Origin: Alteromonas sp. V450
GTDB taxonomy: Bacteria; Pseudomonadota; Gammaproteobacteria; Enterobacterales; Alteromonadaceae
Assembly: GCF_001885075.1 (NCBI RefSeq)
Contig: NZ_MODU01000004.1
Coordinates: forward strand, 1,798,001 to 1,862,000
Direction: 5' to 3'
Length of the DNA: 64,000 nt
The notes under the pieces were generated by a model that searched no databases, had not been told where the DNA came from, and saw nothing but the letters and a program-made list of their open reading frames with translations. This document shows positions 5,576-57,710 of the stretch, piece by piece. The translations under genes and the position numbers were made by a program. Each line of letters starts with the position of its first letter. Position 1 is the stretch's first letter.

Positions 5576-6496
5576 CTATGCTAATAACAGACGCGCTTGT
5601 GCTGCATCTGCTTGAATTTGATCTTTCAACGCCTCAAAAGATTCAAATTTAATTTCATCTCTTATTTTTGCCATCGGAAACACCGTAATAGGCTTGCCAT
5701 ATAGGTCAGATGACAAATCAAAAATATGGACTTCCAGCTGGTTTCTTACCCCGTTAACAGTAGGGCGGGTGCCAATGTTCGCAACGCCATTGTAGTGTTT
5801 CCCATCAACGTCAACACGAACAGCGAACACGCCATGAATGGGCGTTTTTTGGCGTTTTAGCATGACATTCGCGGTGGGAAAACCAATGGTGCGACCTTTT
5901 TTCTCGCCGTGAACCACCCTACCGTGAATAGCAAACGGGCGCCCTAGCATTTCGGTAGACAAACCGAAGTCGCTGTCAGCCAACGCTTCTCGTACCGCCG
6001 TAGAGCTTATTCGATGGGCATGCATGGTAAAACTGTGGGTGCTTACTACATCGAAACCGTATTGGCGACCTGCCGCCTCGAGCATTTCGAAATCCCCTTT
6101 GCGGCCATTGCCAAAACGGAAATCATCGCCAACAACAAGAAATTTAACGCCTAGTTTGTCCACTAGTAAATCATGGACGAAGGTATCGGCACTTTGCTTA
6201 GCAAATTCTGCGTTAAATCGCACAGCAAGCAGTCTGTCGACACCTTGTTGGCGCAGCAGTTCGTACTTTTCGCGAAGAGGGCTTATACGCGCTGGCGCTT
6301 TATCAGGCATAAAGACTTCTTCAGGCTGCGGCTCGAACACCATAACGGTGGCAGGAAGTGATAGCGATTTCGCTTTTTCAAGCACGTTAGCCAACACAGC
6401 TTGATGACCACGGTGTACGCCGTCGAACTTGCCAATAGTGAGCACACACCCTTTATGGTGCGGTTTTACATTGTTTAGCCCGCGGATAAATTCCAC
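5576..6496 (-). CDS. ribF: Bifunctional riboflavin kinase / FAD synthetase
   Basis: 306 aa with two domains. The N-terminal FMN adenylyltransferase (about 1-180) has the nucleotide-binding motif GKFDGVHRGHQ and GDDFRFGNGRKGDF. The C-terminal riboflavin kinase (about 185-305) has GEKKGRTIGFPTANV and GVANIGTRPTVNG. It converts riboflavin to FMN and then FAD in the cytosol. It sits between murJ and ileS on the same strand, as in many gammaproteobacteria. Confidence 0.97.
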   Translation of the reverse strand: MEFIRGLNNVKPHHKGCVLTIGKFDGVHRGHQAVLANVLEKAKSLSLPATVMVFEPQPEEVFMPDKAPARISPLREKYELLRQQGVDRLLAVRFNAEFAKQSADTFVHDLLVDKLGVKFLVVGDDFRFGNGRKGDFEMLEAAGRQYGFDVVSTHSFTMHAHRISSTAVREALADSDFGLSTEMLGRPFAIHGRVVHGEKKGRTIGFPTANVMLKRQKTPIHGVFAVRVDVDGKHYNGVANIGTRPTVNGVRNQLEVHIFDLSSDLYGKPITVFPMAKIRDEIKFESFEALKDQIQADAAQARLLLA

Positions 6497-13944: not shown

Positions 13945-14000
13945 CTGTAACACAATGGTCAAGCAAGCGTCACGGTAGTGTCAATTAGCAAACCTATAGT
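13945..14000 (+). promoter_or_regulatory. PhoB-dependent promoter of plcP (four half-sites plus -10)
   Basis: Four 7-mers start exactly 11 bases apart: CTGTAAC (13945), TGGTCAA (13956), GCGTCAC (13967) and GTGTCAA (13978). The last three keep the GTCA core of the Pho box CTGTCAT. The -10 box TATAGT (13995-14000) begins 11 bases after the last GTCA, the same spacing and the same hexamer as in the E. coli phoA promoter. No good -35 box is present, as expected for PhoB-activated promoters. Confidence 0.8.
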
Positions 14001-14032
14001 GACGGTCCAAGGCATCGCTTTGGGAAACCGCT

Positions 14033-14830
14033 ATGAAAAAGACACACTATCGAACACTTTGGCTTTCTGATATCCATTTAGGAAATCGCGACTGCAAAGC
14101 TGAATACTTACTTTCCTTTCTTAATAGCATCACTGTAGATACCCTCTATTTGGTGGGTGATATTGTTGATATGTGGCAAATGACCAAGCAATTTCGCTGG
14201 CCACAGGCGCACAATCAAGTTATGCACAAATTCATGCAAATGAGCCAGGAAGGCACCCGTGTGGTGTACCTGCCTGGCAACCACGATGAGCCAATTCAGT
14301 CTTATTCTGGTATGGCCTTCGGTGATATAGAAATAGAGCGAGAGTTGGTACACACCACCGCACAAGGAAAGCGTTATTTAGTTTTACATGGCGATCAATT
14401 CGATGGCGATGTGACTATGGGGAAATTCCATGCGTGGATTGGCGATAAAGGTTACGACCTATTGCTTTTTCTAAACAGAGAGTTCAATCGCCTACGCGCC
14501 TGGCGCAAGCGCGAATACTGGTCACTTGCGGGCTATATTAAAAAGCATATTAAGGGTGCGAATGAAGCCATTGCTCGTTATCGAGAGGCATGCTGCAGGC
14601 GCGCCGATGAAATGGGACTTGATGGTGTAGTGTGTGGCCATATTCATCACCCTGAAAGCAGCTTTGAAAACGGCATTCACTATATTAACGATGGTGACTG
14701 GATAGAGAACTGCAGTGCATTGAGTGAAGATATAAACGGTAACCTTTCACTAATCCATTACCTCGATTCACTAGAGTCTGCTAGCGTAACGTCTATTACG
14801 ACCAAAACCTCTCGCTCTAAAGCAGCATAA
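14033..14830 (+). CDS. plcP: PlcP-like metallophosphoesterase (phospholipase C, lipid remodelling)
   Basis: 265 aa calcineurin-like phosphoesterase. Metal motifs are in order: LSDIHLG (residues 10-16), LVGDIVDMW, LPGNHDE, LHGDQFD and GHIHHPE, then GDWIENCSAL. Family tools often label this group UDP-2,3-diacylglucosamine diphosphatase (LpxH). However, WPQAHNQVMHK, YWSLAGYIKKHIK and INDGDWIENC match my recollection of PlcP of Sinorhizobium and marine bacteria, which strips headgroups from phospholipids to give diacylglycerol under phosphate starvation. The four-half-site Pho promoter directly upstream supports PlcP over LpxH. No signal peptide, so it acts at the cytosolic face of the membrane. 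Confidence 0.8.
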   Translation: MKKTHYRTLWLSDIHLGNRDCKAEYLLSFLNSITVDTLYLVGDIVDMWQMTKQFRWPQAHNQVMHKFMQMSQEGTRVVYLPGNHDEPIQSYSGMAFGDIEIERELVHTTAQGKRYLVLHGDQFDGDVTMGKFHAWIGDKGYDLLLFLNREFNRLRAWRKREYWSLAGYIKKHIKGANEAIARYREACCRRADEMGLDGVVCGHIHHPESSFENGIHYINDGDWIENCSALSEDINGNLSLIHYLDSLESASVTSITTKTSRSKAA

Positions 14831-14845
14831 TATCATCCCACAAAA

Positions 14846-14864
14846 AGGGGCTGTAACAGCCCCT
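14846..14864. terminator. Hairpin after plcP, possible terminator
   Basis: AGGGGCTGT / ACAGCCCCT is a perfect 9-bp inverted repeat 15 bases after the plcP stop. The T-run lies on the minus-strand side (TTTTTG), so as a plus-strand terminator it lacks a U-tract. It may slow or partly stop transcription between plcP and olsF, which has its own promoter. Confidence 0.45.
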
Positions 14865-14979
14865 GGCCTCATCTATTCGGCAACAGACAAGTTTTATTTC
14901 AATCCCATCTGTAAAGACGATGACCCATCGAACCTGCTGCACATTGAAGTCAACAGACCTTATTTACAATATTTTAACA

Positions 14980-15035
14980 CTGTCAAATAACTGCCATGAA
15001 ACTGTGTGAAAAACGTCACATTGCCCTGCTATTGT
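14980..15035 (+). promoter_or_regulatory. PhoB-dependent promoter of olsF (four half-sites plus -10)
   Basis: Four 7-mers start exactly 11 bases apart: CTGTCAA (14980), CTGCCAT (14991), CTGTGTG (15002) and ACGTCAC (15013), with A/T-rich 4-base linkers ATAA, GAAA and AAAA. The first two together match the 18-base Pho box at 15 positions. The -10 box TATTGT (15030-15035) starts 11 bases after the last GTCA, the same geometry as at plcP. Transcription would start near 15042. Confidence 0.82.
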
Positions 15036-15064
15036 TCGCCAAAACCGGAAGAGAAACAGGTTCT

Positions 15065-16783
15065 ATGTTTACTGTAAACGACGTATTGAACAAGCATTAT
15101 CCTCAAGTAGCGAACAACCCCATTCTATTTAAGTCGCTGTCTTTCGTTTTAAGGCACCTACTCCATGAACGTGAAATTACCGAATTTGGTGAAACCTATC
15201 CGCACTATGAGGACATCGATTTCGTAGAGCAAGTACTGGAATATTTTAATATCAGCTATTCCACACGCGATGTAGAAAAAGAACGTATTCCAAGTGAAGG
15301 AAGAGTGGTGATTATTGCGAACCACCCTATTGGCTCACTCGATGCTCTTGCGCTTATAAAATTGGTTAGTGAAGTACGTCACGACTTAAAAGTGGTTGCC
15401 AATGAAATGCTTATGGCCATTGAACCGCTTCACGATATGCTGCTACCTGTAAACAACATGCAGGGAGGCACGCCGAAACAGCATTTGTCGGCAATTCAAA
15501 AACACCTTAACAGCGATGGCGCCATATTGATTTTCCCCGCTGGTGAAGTCTCTCGATTGCGCCCACAAGGTGTTCGCGACACACGTTGGCACACCGGTTT
15601 TTTACGCATTGCAAGGCAGGCAAAATCGCCAATTTTGCCTGTCTATATTGATGCTAAAAATAGCCCGCTTTTTTACGGTGTGTCCATGGTGTACAAGCCA
15701 TTAGCCACCGCGCTGCTCGTTAAAGAGATGTTCAAACAGCGCAAAAAGCATTTACCTATGCGCATTGGTGAACTTATCCCATTTGAGGCATACCAACAAA
15801 CCAATATACCGCTAAAAGAACAGGTAAAGCTGTTTAAGCGCCACTTGTATCGCATTGGCAGTAACAAGAAAGGCGTATTTGAAACACAGGCTTCCATTGC
15901 CATGCCAGAAGACAGAAAAGAACTGGCCCGCGCTATGCGAGACTGCGAACATTTAGGTGAAACTGGCGACGGAAAGTCTATTTACCTCTACCAACACAAA
16001 AGCTGCTCACCGATAATGCGAGAGATTGGCCGCCTGCGTGAAGTGGCGTTTCGCGCTGTGGGCGAAGGCACTAATAAACGCAGAGACATCGACCTGTACG
16101 ATCCCCACTATTATCACCTTGTACTTTGGGATGACAACGATTTAGAAATTGTGGGCGCCTACCGCTTTGGCGATGCTGAACTTCTGACAGCGCCAGACCA
16201 TCCTACCGGGCTCTACTCTGCCACGTTATTCAATTACGGCAAGAACAACGACAAACTCTTTAAAGAAGGCTTAGAGCTAGGACGAAGTTTTGTGCAGCCT
16301 CGCTACTGGGGGAAACGCAGCTTAGATTATTTGTGGTTTGGTATTGGGGCATTTTTAAGCCGCTACCCTAAGTATCGCTATCTTTTCGGTGCGGTGTCAC
16401 TCAGCAACGCCTATCCTGAACCCGCTAAAGATTTATTGGTACAATTCTATTCAACCTATTTTCCTGCCAAGTTTGGCGAAGCGACTTGTAAGCGTCCTTA
16501 TCAAATGACGAACGATGCCTTGCACCAGTTTACAGGGAACGATTACAAGGCTGAATTTACGCAGTTGAAGCATTTACTCGCTAACATGGGCGTAAACGTA
16601 CCAACATTGTACAAGCAATACTCTGAAGTGGCTAAAGACGGCGGGGTAGCGTTTTTAGGTTTTAATGTAGACCCAGATTTTAACGACTGTATTGATGGTT
16701 TAGTGGTGGTTGATATGCAAACGCTTACCGAGAAAAAGCGTAAGCGCTATTTAACCGACATTCAGCTTAAAGCCACAGCCTAA
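15065..16783 (+). CDS. olsF: OlsF-like bifunctional acyltransferase (PlsC domain + GNAT/OlsB domain)
   Basis: 572 aa fusion. Residues ~55-260 are a PlsC-type lysophospholipid acyltransferase with NHPIGSLDAL (an HX5D variant of the HX4D motif) and FPAGEVSR. Residues ~295-500 are a hemolysin-like GNAT N-acyltransferase as in OlsB (MREIGRLREVAFRAVGEG, IDLYDPHYYHLVLWD, YPKYRYLFGAVS). This order matches OlsF of Serratia, where one protein N-acylates ornithine and then O-acylates the lyso-lipid to make ornithine lipid. The amino acid used here is unproven. I reject the ATG at 14996 because it lies inside the Pho boxes. The ATG at 15065 follows the predicted transcription start. Confidence 0.82.
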   Translation: MFTVNDVLNKHYPQVANNPILFKSLSFVLRHLLHEREITEFGETYPHYEDIDFVEQVLEYFNISYSTRDVEKERIPSEGRVVIIANHPIGSLDALALIKLVSEVRHDLKVVANEMLMAIEPLHDMLLPVNNMQGGTPKQHLSAIQKHLNSDGAILIFPAGEVSRLRPQGVRDTRWHTGFLRIARQAKSPILPVYIDAKNSPLFYGVSMVYKPLATALLVKEMFKQRKKHLPMRIGELIPFEAYQQTNIPLKEQVKLFKRHLYRIGSNKKGVFETQASIAMPEDRKELARAMRDCEHLGETGDGKSIYLYQHKSCSPIMREIGRLREVAFRAVGEGTNKRRDIDLYDPHYYHLVLWDDNDLEIVGAYRFGDAELLTAPDHPTGLYSATLFNYGKNNDKLFKEGLELGRSFVQPRYWGKRSLDYLWFGIGAFLSRYPKYRYLFGAVSLSNAYPEPAKDLLVQFYSTYFPAKFGEATCKRPYQMTNDALHQFTGNDYKAEFTQLKHLLANMGVNVPTLYKQYSEVAKDGGVAFLGFNVDPDFNDCIDGLVVVDMQTLTEKKRKRYLTDIQLKATA

Positions 16784-16889: not shown

Positions 16890-18071
16890 TCATCGACCGC
16901 CAACACACTTGAGAATATCGGTATAGATATCTTCAAGGGTAAGCAAGTCAGACACATGAATGTGCTCGTTTATTTGATGAATGGTGGTATTTGGCACACC
17001 TACTTCAAGGACTTGTGTGTGCTCACTTGCAAAAAAACGCCCATCTGAAGTACCACCAGATGTGCTGATAACAGGGTAACGACCTGTGGCGCTTTTTATT
17101 GCCTTTTCTACACAAGCAATTAAGCAGTGCTCTGCATTGCTCTTGGGCTTGCTTAAGTAAGCTTCACAGGGTCTTGAAAAGCTCACTTGGGCTTCTGGAT
17201 CAACGCTATTGATAATACTGCGTAGCAATGCTGATAAACCTTTTTGGTCAAACTGCCACGAATATCTAACGTTAAACTCTACACGAACGGCACTAGGCAC
17301 AATGTTATCGGTGAAGCTTCCCGTGTCCATGTGTGTTATTTGTAGCGTAGTGCCAGGAAAATCCTCACTCCCCTTATCAAATGGGTGCTGTGTTAACGCG
17401 TTAATCACGTTACTGGCTTTATGAATAGCATTCACCGCTGTCTTTGGGTAGGCCACATGGCCTTGCTTTCCTGTGATATGAATAGTGCCTGAAAGTGAGC
17501 CCCTGCGGCCAATCTTAACCGTATCGCCGGTTGTTGCAGATGCAGAAGGTTCACCTACTAGGCACATATCAAGCTGGACATTTTTAGATGCCAAATATTC
17601 AGCTATCCATTTGGAGCCCCATTCAGCTTCACCTTCTTCATCACTGGTGATTAGCCACCACAAAGAAACCTTACTGTCATCTAGGGAATCAATGGTGCGC
17701 TCTGTTGCCGCGAGCATGGCGGCGATACCTGTTTTCATGTCAGCAGCACCACGCCCATATAGTTTATTTTGGCTAATTACAGGGCTAAAAGGCGGTGACT
17801 TCCACTTATCAAGGGGGCCTGGAGGCACAACGTCAGTGTGGCCGCAAAATGCAAAGTGATTTGTGCCCTGCCCCCACCTAGCGATAAGGTTACTCACACC
17901 ATTAACTGTGTGCTTTTCACAGGAAAAACCAAGCTTTTTGAGCTTGTACATTAAATAACTCTGGCAACCAGCGTCTTGTGGGGTAATCGACGCTCTTGCC
18001 ATTAGTACTTCAGCGAAATAAATGCTGCGAGCTGGCGTTACAGAAGGTAAGGGCTGAATTGACATGCGCAT
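16890..18071 (-). CDS. dapE: Succinyl-diaminopimelate desuccinylase
   Basis: Zinc-dependent M20 hydrolase of lysine and meso-DAP synthesis: it releases succinate from N-succinyl-LL-DAP in the cytosol. Landmarks are ASITPQDAGCQ, the metal ligands in FCGHTDVVPPG and YGRGAADMKTG, catalytic TSDEEGEAEWGSKW, LVGEPSA, and the last His in TTIHQINEHIHV. The frame is open to 18104. I favour the ATG at 18071 (393 aa), which has TAGAGA upstream and is nearer the usual ~375-380 aa. It stands alone here, convergent with olsF. Confidence 0.93.
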   Translation of the reverse strand: MRMSIQPLPSVTPARSIYFAEVLMARASITPQDAGCQSYLMYKLKKLGFSCEKHTVNGVSNLIARWGQGTNHFAFCGHTDVVPPGPLDKWKSPPFSPVISQNKLYGRGAADMKTGIAAMLAATERTIDSLDDSKVSLWWLITSDEEGEAEWGSKWIAEYLASKNVQLDMCLVGEPSASATTGDTVKIGRRGSLSGTIHITGKQGHVAYPKTAVNAIHKASNVINALTQHPFDKGSEDFPGTTLQITHMDTGSFTDNIVPSAVRVEFNVRYSWQFDQKGLSALLRSIINSVDPEAQVSFSRPCEAYLSKPKSNAEHCLIACVEKAIKSATGRYPVISTSGGTSDGRFFASEHTQVLEVGVPNTTIHQINEHIHVSDLLTLEDIYTDILKCVGGR

Positions 18072-18243
18072 AAAATCTCTATGGAACGTGGGACCATTAC
18101 ACAAATGTAAAGTGACACGTGAATAACAGATTTACGACAATGCTGTGACAGCGGACAAAGTAAGCTGAAGCTAAAAGTAATCAAGGGGGACAACAAAGAA
18201 GGCGCAATGGGTGAGTTTGCGACTAGGACCGGCTCGTTAAGAT

Positions 18244-57021: not shown

Positions 57022-57453
57022 TTAGCGAGTACGTGGGCAGATTTCTTCTTCAGAGAAGAAGTAAGCAATTTCACGTGCTGCTGATTCAGGTGCGTCAGAA
57101 CCGTGAACTGCGTTTTCGTCGATTGACGCAGCGTAGTCTGAACGTAGTGTACCTGCAGCTGCATCAGCTGGGTTAGTTGCGCCCATGATTTCACGGTTAG
57201 CTAGAACAGCATTTTCGCCTTCTAGTACTTGAACCATAACCGGACCAGACGTCATGAAGTCTACAAGTGCGCCGAAGAAAGGACGCTCTTTGTGTTCTGC
57301 ATAGAAGCCTTCTGCTTGCTCTTTGCTCATGTGGATCATCTTAGATGCCACGATGCGAAGACCTGCAGATTCGAAACGGTTGTAAATTGCACCGATTACG
57401 TTTTTAGCTACCGCATCAGGCTTGATAATCGAAAAAGTACGCTCAAGAGCCAT
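57022..57453 (-). CDS. ndk: Nucleoside diphosphate kinase
   Basis: 143 aa. The phospho-His is in [12 protein letters not shown] (H117), and the N-terminus [15 protein letters not shown] and [14 protein letters not shown] are family signatures. It transfers phosphate between nucleoside di- and triphosphates in the cytosol. Strong Shine-Dalgarno GGAGAGAG. First gene of the ndk-to-der block, though a strong terminator and the repeat element separate it from rlmN. Confidence 0.98.
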
Positions 57454-57532: not shown

Positions 57533-57710
57533 GAGCCTTTATCAAATCAGATATAAAGTACTGTTTTTATGCGTAAATGTAGAGAAAGGATAGCCTGTTA
57601 GCGATGACAATATGATGACAGCGTACAGAATATTTTGCGCGATACGTGGTTACCGGCAACTGTATCTGCGCCCTGCCTTTTCTATGAGACCCTAAAACGG
57701 CGTAAAGAAA

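Follow-up and report, generated by a model that had tools for sequence, protein, structure and literature searches.

Which phosphorus-free lipid would take the place of phospholipids in Alteromonas when phosphate runs out, and how is its synthesis tied to phospholipid breakdown? The question is raised by two neighbouring genes, plcP and olsF, within a 64,000-nt stretch of Alteromonas sp. V450 (hereafter the window; assembly GCF_001885075.1, contig NZ_MODU01000004.1, positions 1,798,001–1,862,000, forward strand). This genus and its relatives are heterotrophs that are common in the sea. An earlier reading of the window, here called the original prediction, described a module of a PlcP-like phospholipase C and a fused OlsF-like acyltransferase, each under its own Pho promoter and joined in a replacement cycle. 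The analysis reported here indicates that this is very probably a PhoB-controlled membrane-remodelling locus, in which PlcP would perform the degradation and OlsF supply the replacement lipid, with a third gene, dapE2, in an auxiliary role.

Identity of the plcP and olsF products

The plcP gene (window positions 14033–14830, plus strand; 265 residues) is predicted to encode a metallophosphoesterase of the PlcP phospholipase C type and not LpxH. Its product was 44% identical to a Pseudomonas aeruginosa homologue, whose gene is followed by a glycosyltransferase gene, and 40% identical over 89% (E = 6e-55) to a Sinorhizobium meliloti homologue. The gene of the latter lies near an acyl-homoserine-lactone synthase gene and a LuxR-type gene, in a record labelled as a 3.7-Mb plasmid, and we take it to be SMc00171, the studied PlcP. 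When five PlcP-type proteins were aligned with one LpxH, calcineurin-type metal motifs together with a C-terminal GDW(V/I)E.C(T/S)A motif were common to the former and not to LpxH; the reading of these motifs is our own. Against the LpxH models TIGR01854 and PRK05340, the window protein scored 46 bits, with cut-offs of 190 and 134, whereas another gene elsewhere in the genome scored 312 and 311 bits. An LpxH identity, which the original prediction had named among the findings that would refute it, was dropped because the score lay far under the cut-offs and a full LpxH is encoded elsewhere. The PlcP-like assignment was thus borne out by homologue identity, end motif and sub-cut-off LpxH scores.

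The olsF gene (15065–16783, plus strand; 572 residues) encodes a predicted OlsF, the bifunctional ornithine-lipid synthase, for which the acyl acceptor could also be lysine or another head group. A profile search returned 881.8 bits for the NCBIfam OlsF equivalog NF052615 (cut-off 620). The single chain comprises an N-terminal O-acyltransferase domain (PF19576), the type given for OlsF in PMC11631085, and a C-terminal N-acyltransferase domain (PF13444), in agreement with the fused acyltransferase first described; PF01553 also matched the N-terminal part (50 bits). The start had originally been set at 14996, from which the frame is open, but homologue alignments begin at Met 15065. As the Pho box at 14980–14997 extends into the codon at 14996, the start was placed at 15065. 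Between plcP and olsF, a GC-rich stem-loop (14846–14864) is terminator-like on the minus strand only.

Conservation of the plcP–olsF pair

The genus survey covered 59 genomes, and co-occurrence was counted without phylogenetic correction. plcP was found in 50 of them and olsF in all of these 50, the two being adjacent and co-directional in 46. Three further genomes had olsF without plcP (in G057, olsF begins at a contig edge) and six had neither. The adjacency and co-direction originally described for the window were confirmed, and the functional linkage of the two genes is borne out by their conserved adjacency across the genus.

Named plcP loci were gathered with six peptide patterns from the window PlcP, of which the best 80 were kept, so that close relatives are favoured. 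The resulting 79 loci span Alteromonas, Paraglaciecola, Aliiglaciecola, Bowmanella, Lacimicrobium, Neptunicella, a Colwellia and others; among the matches listed, the closest named relatives were Alteromonas portus and A. marina (PlcP 98%). olsF lay directly downstream of plcP on the same strand in 60 loci, a count that includes two partial olsF matches (L177 and L188, the gap value of the former being meaningless). The remaining 19 include four with a class-3 lipase gene (L147–L150), two with an Agt homologue (L190 and L194) and two with under 2 kb of downstream sequence (L180 and L181). The plcP–olsF pair is a conserved cassette in many relatives. plcP was apparently split between two frames in one of the 50 genus genomes, G002 (L071:6441–7219), and in a Colwellia (L187:6001–6793), with olsF kept in both. 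A second OlsF-like protein, 31–33% identical to OlsF, was found in 3/59 genus genomes (G037, G051 and G054), and the two such genes that were inspected (L073:5650–7248 and L074:5416–7035) had no Pho array.

Pho-box arrays in the window and in relatives

Sites were scored mainly on two scales. The four-site score counts matches to four copies of CTGTCAT in an 11-base register, out of 28, and the two-site score counts matches to the two-site Pho consensus, out of 18. By chance, four-site scores of at least 18 are expected at about 0.8 places per 64 kb, both strands included. The three best separate places in the window were located at 18112 (minus strand, 22), 14980 (20) and 13945 (18). The highest-scoring array (18112–18151, minus strand) precedes dapE2. 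The olsF array (14980–15019, plus strand; half-sites at 14980, 14991, 15002 and 15013) also contains the best two-site match of the window (14980–14997, 16/18), and none as good occurred in 10 Markov resamples. The plcP array (13945–13984, plus strand) is weak as a single site (12/18), yet its four half-sites, at 13945, 13956, 13967 and 13978, keep the exact 11-base register, and its score was tied only by shifted versions of the other two arrays. PhoB itself is encoded in the genome (367 bits in a profile search; cut-off 296). The separate Pho promoters originally proposed for plcP and olsF are thus matched by Pho-box-like arrays before both genes, and the third array had been overlooked. Elsewhere in the window, the best two-half-site Pho-like match by half-site count (57604–57621, minus strand; 13/14) sits ~150 bases upstream of a 143-residue open reading frame (ORF) at 57022–57453 on the same strand.

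The arrays recur in relatives. Four-site scores of at least 18 were reached upstream of plcP in 74% of 84 regions, compared with 0.3% after first-order Markov resampling, upstream of olsF in 61% of 59 regions, and upstream of dapE2 in 96% of 24 regions, compared with 0.8%; the resampled rates for the three sets together ranged from 0.1 to 0.8%. The plcP arrays lie mostly 80–120 bases before the start. None of the control regions reached this score (ppiD, 0/14; lysR, 0/11; BASS transporter, 0/11; lipase, 0/34). The plcP and lipase sets count four genomes twice, as L087–L090 are the genomes of L147–L150. Where plcP and olsF abut (L165 and L179, at spacings of −1 and 3 bases), the plcP array stays and that of olsF drops to background. 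One genome without plcP (L069) carries a strong Pho array (21/28) 230 bases before olsF, upstream of position 5705.

A third Pho-box gene, dapE2

The original two-gene module proved incomplete, as a convergent gene next to olsF with a Pho box of its own had escaped notice. This gene, dapE2 (16890–18071, minus strand), lies in a frame open to 18104 and encodes a second, divergent deacylase of the DapE family (M20). Its start is likely the ATG at 18071 or at 18065, as judged by where the Pho box lies. The product scored 398.7 bits against the DapE equivalog TIGR01246 (cut-off 361.8) and was 41% identical to another DapE encoded elsewhere in the genome, which, given the ArsC-like ORF in front of its gene, we take to be the ordinary enzyme.

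Within the genus, dapE2 was present in 28 of the 59 genomes, all of them among the 46 with an adjacent plcP–olsF pair. It was convergent beside olsF in 27; the 28th copy (G044) is fragmentary and sits on a different contig. The copy of G047, with three stops, is the only one counted as degraded. Five other copies contain one stop each within the matched stretch, and the two matched pieces of G040 share a reading frame and are separated by a small in-frame insertion. G055, which was not counted, apparently retains only a 39-residue remnant (L124).

DapE2 shares with DapE, the succinyl-diaminopimelate desuccinylase, its family as well as the catalytic and near-carboxylate residues. With residue numbers transferred by motif, and not from the Haemophilus influenzae sequence, the metal and catalytic positions were kept in 24/24 aligned copies, except for E134 (23/24), and the positions contacting the near carboxylate were kept in the same 24 copies. 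DapE2 is unlike DapE at the far end of the pocket, where positions 244, 290 and 291 were Asp, Pro and Cys in every copy and position 181 was Ala in 8/24, and it differs further in its Pho-box array. In docking, the far carboxylate of succinyl-diaminopimelate is contacted by the NH of Asn244, by Ser181 and by Ser290 (PMC5919655). The residues expected of DapE at this site were not found in DapE2, given the invariant Asp 244 and Pro 290. Two observations bear on this comparison: positions 244 and 290 are Gly and Asn in the genome's other DapE, and Thr and Ser in the solved DapEs compared, and the Asn244 contact runs through the backbone NH.

With a negative Asp at the far-carboxylate site, the substrate may lack this carboxylate, N-acyl-ornithine and N-acyl-lysine being candidates, and the site would be replaced by one that binds a terminal ammonium. 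We tentatively propose, while holding it to be rather less than probable, that dapE2 may encode an unrecognised Pho-regulon enzyme that deacylates an N-acyl precursor to provide OlsF with ornithine or lysine, which would make plcP–olsF–dapE2 a three-part amino-lipid locus.

Possible fate of the diacylglycerol

Ornithine lipids consist of an amino acid and two fatty acyl groups (PMC12493201), so the diacylglycerol released by PlcP is not a substrate of OlsF, which joins fatty acyl groups to an amino acid and does not consume diacylglycerol. The link between plcP and olsF is therefore regulatory, and the PlcP product requires another sink. The replacement cycle put forward originally does not hold on this account, and a co-regulated exchange fits better. 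Aminolipid formation in a roseobacter is called independent of the PlcP pathway in PMC9938194.

The original prediction saw no glycosyltransferase in the window and suggested a whole-genome search for agt. With a P. aeruginosa Agt as the single query, 0/59 genus genomes gave a match at E <= 1e-10, which extends that observation beyond the window for this one query. As a positive control, the same query retrieved Agt at 49–54% identity in two control genomes, in which the genes adjoin plcP. The BtaA model (PF11899) had no match in the window genome, and it matched in just 1/14 control genomes.

Candidate diacylglycerol sinks encoded in the genome are DgkA and a wax ester synthase/diacylglycerol acyltransferase (WS/DGAT). 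A Pho-like site near dgkA (19/28) was taken as chance, since it lies past the end of the gene and inside an ORF on the opposite strand, and the four-site scan gave no site above 16/28 at the WS/DGAT locus. Four Alteromonas genomes have plcP away from olsF, with a class-3 lipase gene after it (L065:5636–7340, L066, L067 and L068); tblastn placed this gene directly after plcP at L147–L150, which are the same genomes. In L065 and L068, for which ORFs were listed, we read plcP as lying inside an apparent lhr–pdeM–exonuclease–ligase cluster. A homologue of the lipase (50%) is encoded in the window genome. A class-3 lipase as diacylglycerol sink stays a hint because, as noted above, the lipase genes have no four-site array.

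Proposed mechanism and alternatives

At the level of sequence, the gene identities, the Pho-box-like arrays, the linkage, the lack of Agt and BtaA matches with the queries used, and the altered DapE2 pocket agree with a PhoB-controlled remodelling locus. In the scheme that we infer, PhoB would bind the arrays when phosphate runs out, and PlcP would cleave phospholipids, yielding diacylglycerol and a phosphorylated head group; the cell would then recover phosphate from the latter. OlsF would acylate ornithine twice, and the resulting phosphorus-free ornithine lipid would fill the membrane. The two reactions would be coupled through shared regulation and conserved linkage, and not through a shared metabolite, and the diacylglycerol may leave by DgkA rephosphorylation, WS/DGAT storage or lipolysis. 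In the 28 genomes with dapE2, its product would join the response, its likeliest role being that of an accessory deacylase releasing a diamino acid, ornithine or lysine, for use by OlsF.

Three alternatives were weighed against this scheme. That the metallophosphoesterase is an LpxH/LpxH2-type UDP-diacylglucosamine hydrolase for lipid A, with olsF as an incidental neighbour, draws on its membership of the LpxH superfamily, on a sequence search of solved structures, which at E <= 0.01 gave LpxH chains and nothing else (E of 0.0003–0.003), and on 24/32 plasmid records matching the window PlcP that are labelled UDP-2,3-diacylglucosamine diphosphatase. Such a role is very improbable in view of the score far below the LpxH cut-offs in a genome that has a full LpxH elsewhere, the 40–44% identity to the S. 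meliloti and P. aeruginosa homologues, and the conservation of both the Pho array and the olsF linkage. Labels of this kind in plasmid records may hide lipid-remodelling genes; a search of plasmid DNA gave no match. A hidden glycolipid branch, in which an unrecognised glycosyltransferase glycosylates the PlcP diacylglycerol and ornithine lipid is a mere side product, would account for the sink that this diacylglycerol must have; plcP often adjoins glycosyltransferase or btaAB genes (PMC4796936, section 13), and the glycosyltransferase search consisted of one Agt query for one family. We regard this branch as unlikely, given an Agt query that found nothing in the genus and worked in both control genomes, no BtaA match in the window genome with a model positive in one of 14 controls, and the presence of olsF in every genus genome that has plcP.

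The remaining alternative concerns dapE2, which may be a spare DapE of lysine and diaminopimelate synthesis that stands under a Pho box by chance. The product of dapE2 exceeds the DapE equivalog cut-offs and retains its metal and catalytic residues, apart from E134 in one copy. The genome, however, encodes another DapE, the changes in the far-end pocket are invariant, and within the genus the gene occurs only alongside an adjacent plcP–olsF pair. A spare DapE is a real possibility that falls somewhat short of probable.

Several observations weigh against a PhoB-controlled remodelling locus as proposed, or against parts of it. The interpretation as a whole is drawn from sequence, and the role of DapE2 from an alignment. 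The phoB gene of the window genome showed no clear Pho box of its own. When at least 11/14 was required on a stricter two-site measure, which counts two half-sites, the pass rate was only 39% for plcP and 34% for olsF, compared with 92% for dapE2, and the controls were not clean, with rates of 21% for lipase and 9% for BASS; the resampled rate was 0.5–1.5% for these five sets. Six relatives with plcP–olsF gaps of 80–338 bases also scored low for olsF (14–15), so that loss of its box is not confined to abutting pairs, and weak arrays (14–16/28) were found at four olsF genes unlinked from plcP and at one in a plcP-less genome. Tandem Pho-like half-sites at 11-base spacing are thus conserved upstream, less strongly on the two-site measure and for unlinked olsF. 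dapE2 is missing from 18 of the 46 paired genomes and is therefore not essential. Finally, the abundance of olsF in Tara metagenomes is reported to be uncorrelated with N*, an index that sets nitrogen against phosphate (PMC6298996), which argues against a phosphate-poor sea-water ecology.

Relation to known systems

The PlcP–Agt and PlcP–BtaAB systems of SAR11, Phaeobacter MED193, P. aeruginosa and S. meliloti likewise have a Pho-box plcP beside, or in the same genome as, genes for phosphorus-free lipids. The Alteromonas locus differs in that the neighbour of plcP is olsF, whose product does not use diacylglycerol, and in the lack of an Agt or BtaA match. The plcP contexts described in section 13 of PMC4796936 comprise btaAB neighbours, glycosyltransferase neighbours and two types without an operon partner, and olsF is not among them. 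Pseudomonas putida BIRD-1 is similar in that PlcP, OlsA and OlsB are all Pho-dependent, being absent in a phoBR mutant (PMC5082522); it differs by its separate OlsA and OlsB (PPUBIRD1_0974 and PPUBIRD1_0975) and a plcP that lies apart (PPUBIRD1_1390), whereas in Alteromonas a fused OlsF adjoins plcP. The phoBR-dependent list of the same study includes the arginine/ornithine antiporter arcD, a precedent for Pho-controlled supply or traffic of ornithine. In Vibrio cholerae, the OlsF VC0489 is PhoB-dependent and makes ornithine lipid at low phosphate; a plcP partner is not mentioned in the portions of that report consulted, nor was it looked for there (PMC12186959).

PlcP remodelling (PMC4796936), PhoB-controlled OlsF (PMC12186959), and Pho control of PlcP and ornithine-lipid genes (PMC5082522) are therefore each already known. 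Among the open-licence papers listed, judged mostly by title and the start of the abstract, no description was found of a conserved plcP–olsF cassette, or of a Pho-controlled dapE or Pho-box dapE paralogue.

The conserved cassette predicts an amino-acid lipid, and not a glycolipid, as the phosphorus-free substitute in Alteromonas and its relatives, which would alter the reading of lipid surveys and of plcP marker-gene counts. It also raises the question of where the diacylglycerol released by PlcP goes without a glycosyltransferase. If true, the dapE2 link would give the phosphate response a step of its own for supplying the head group.

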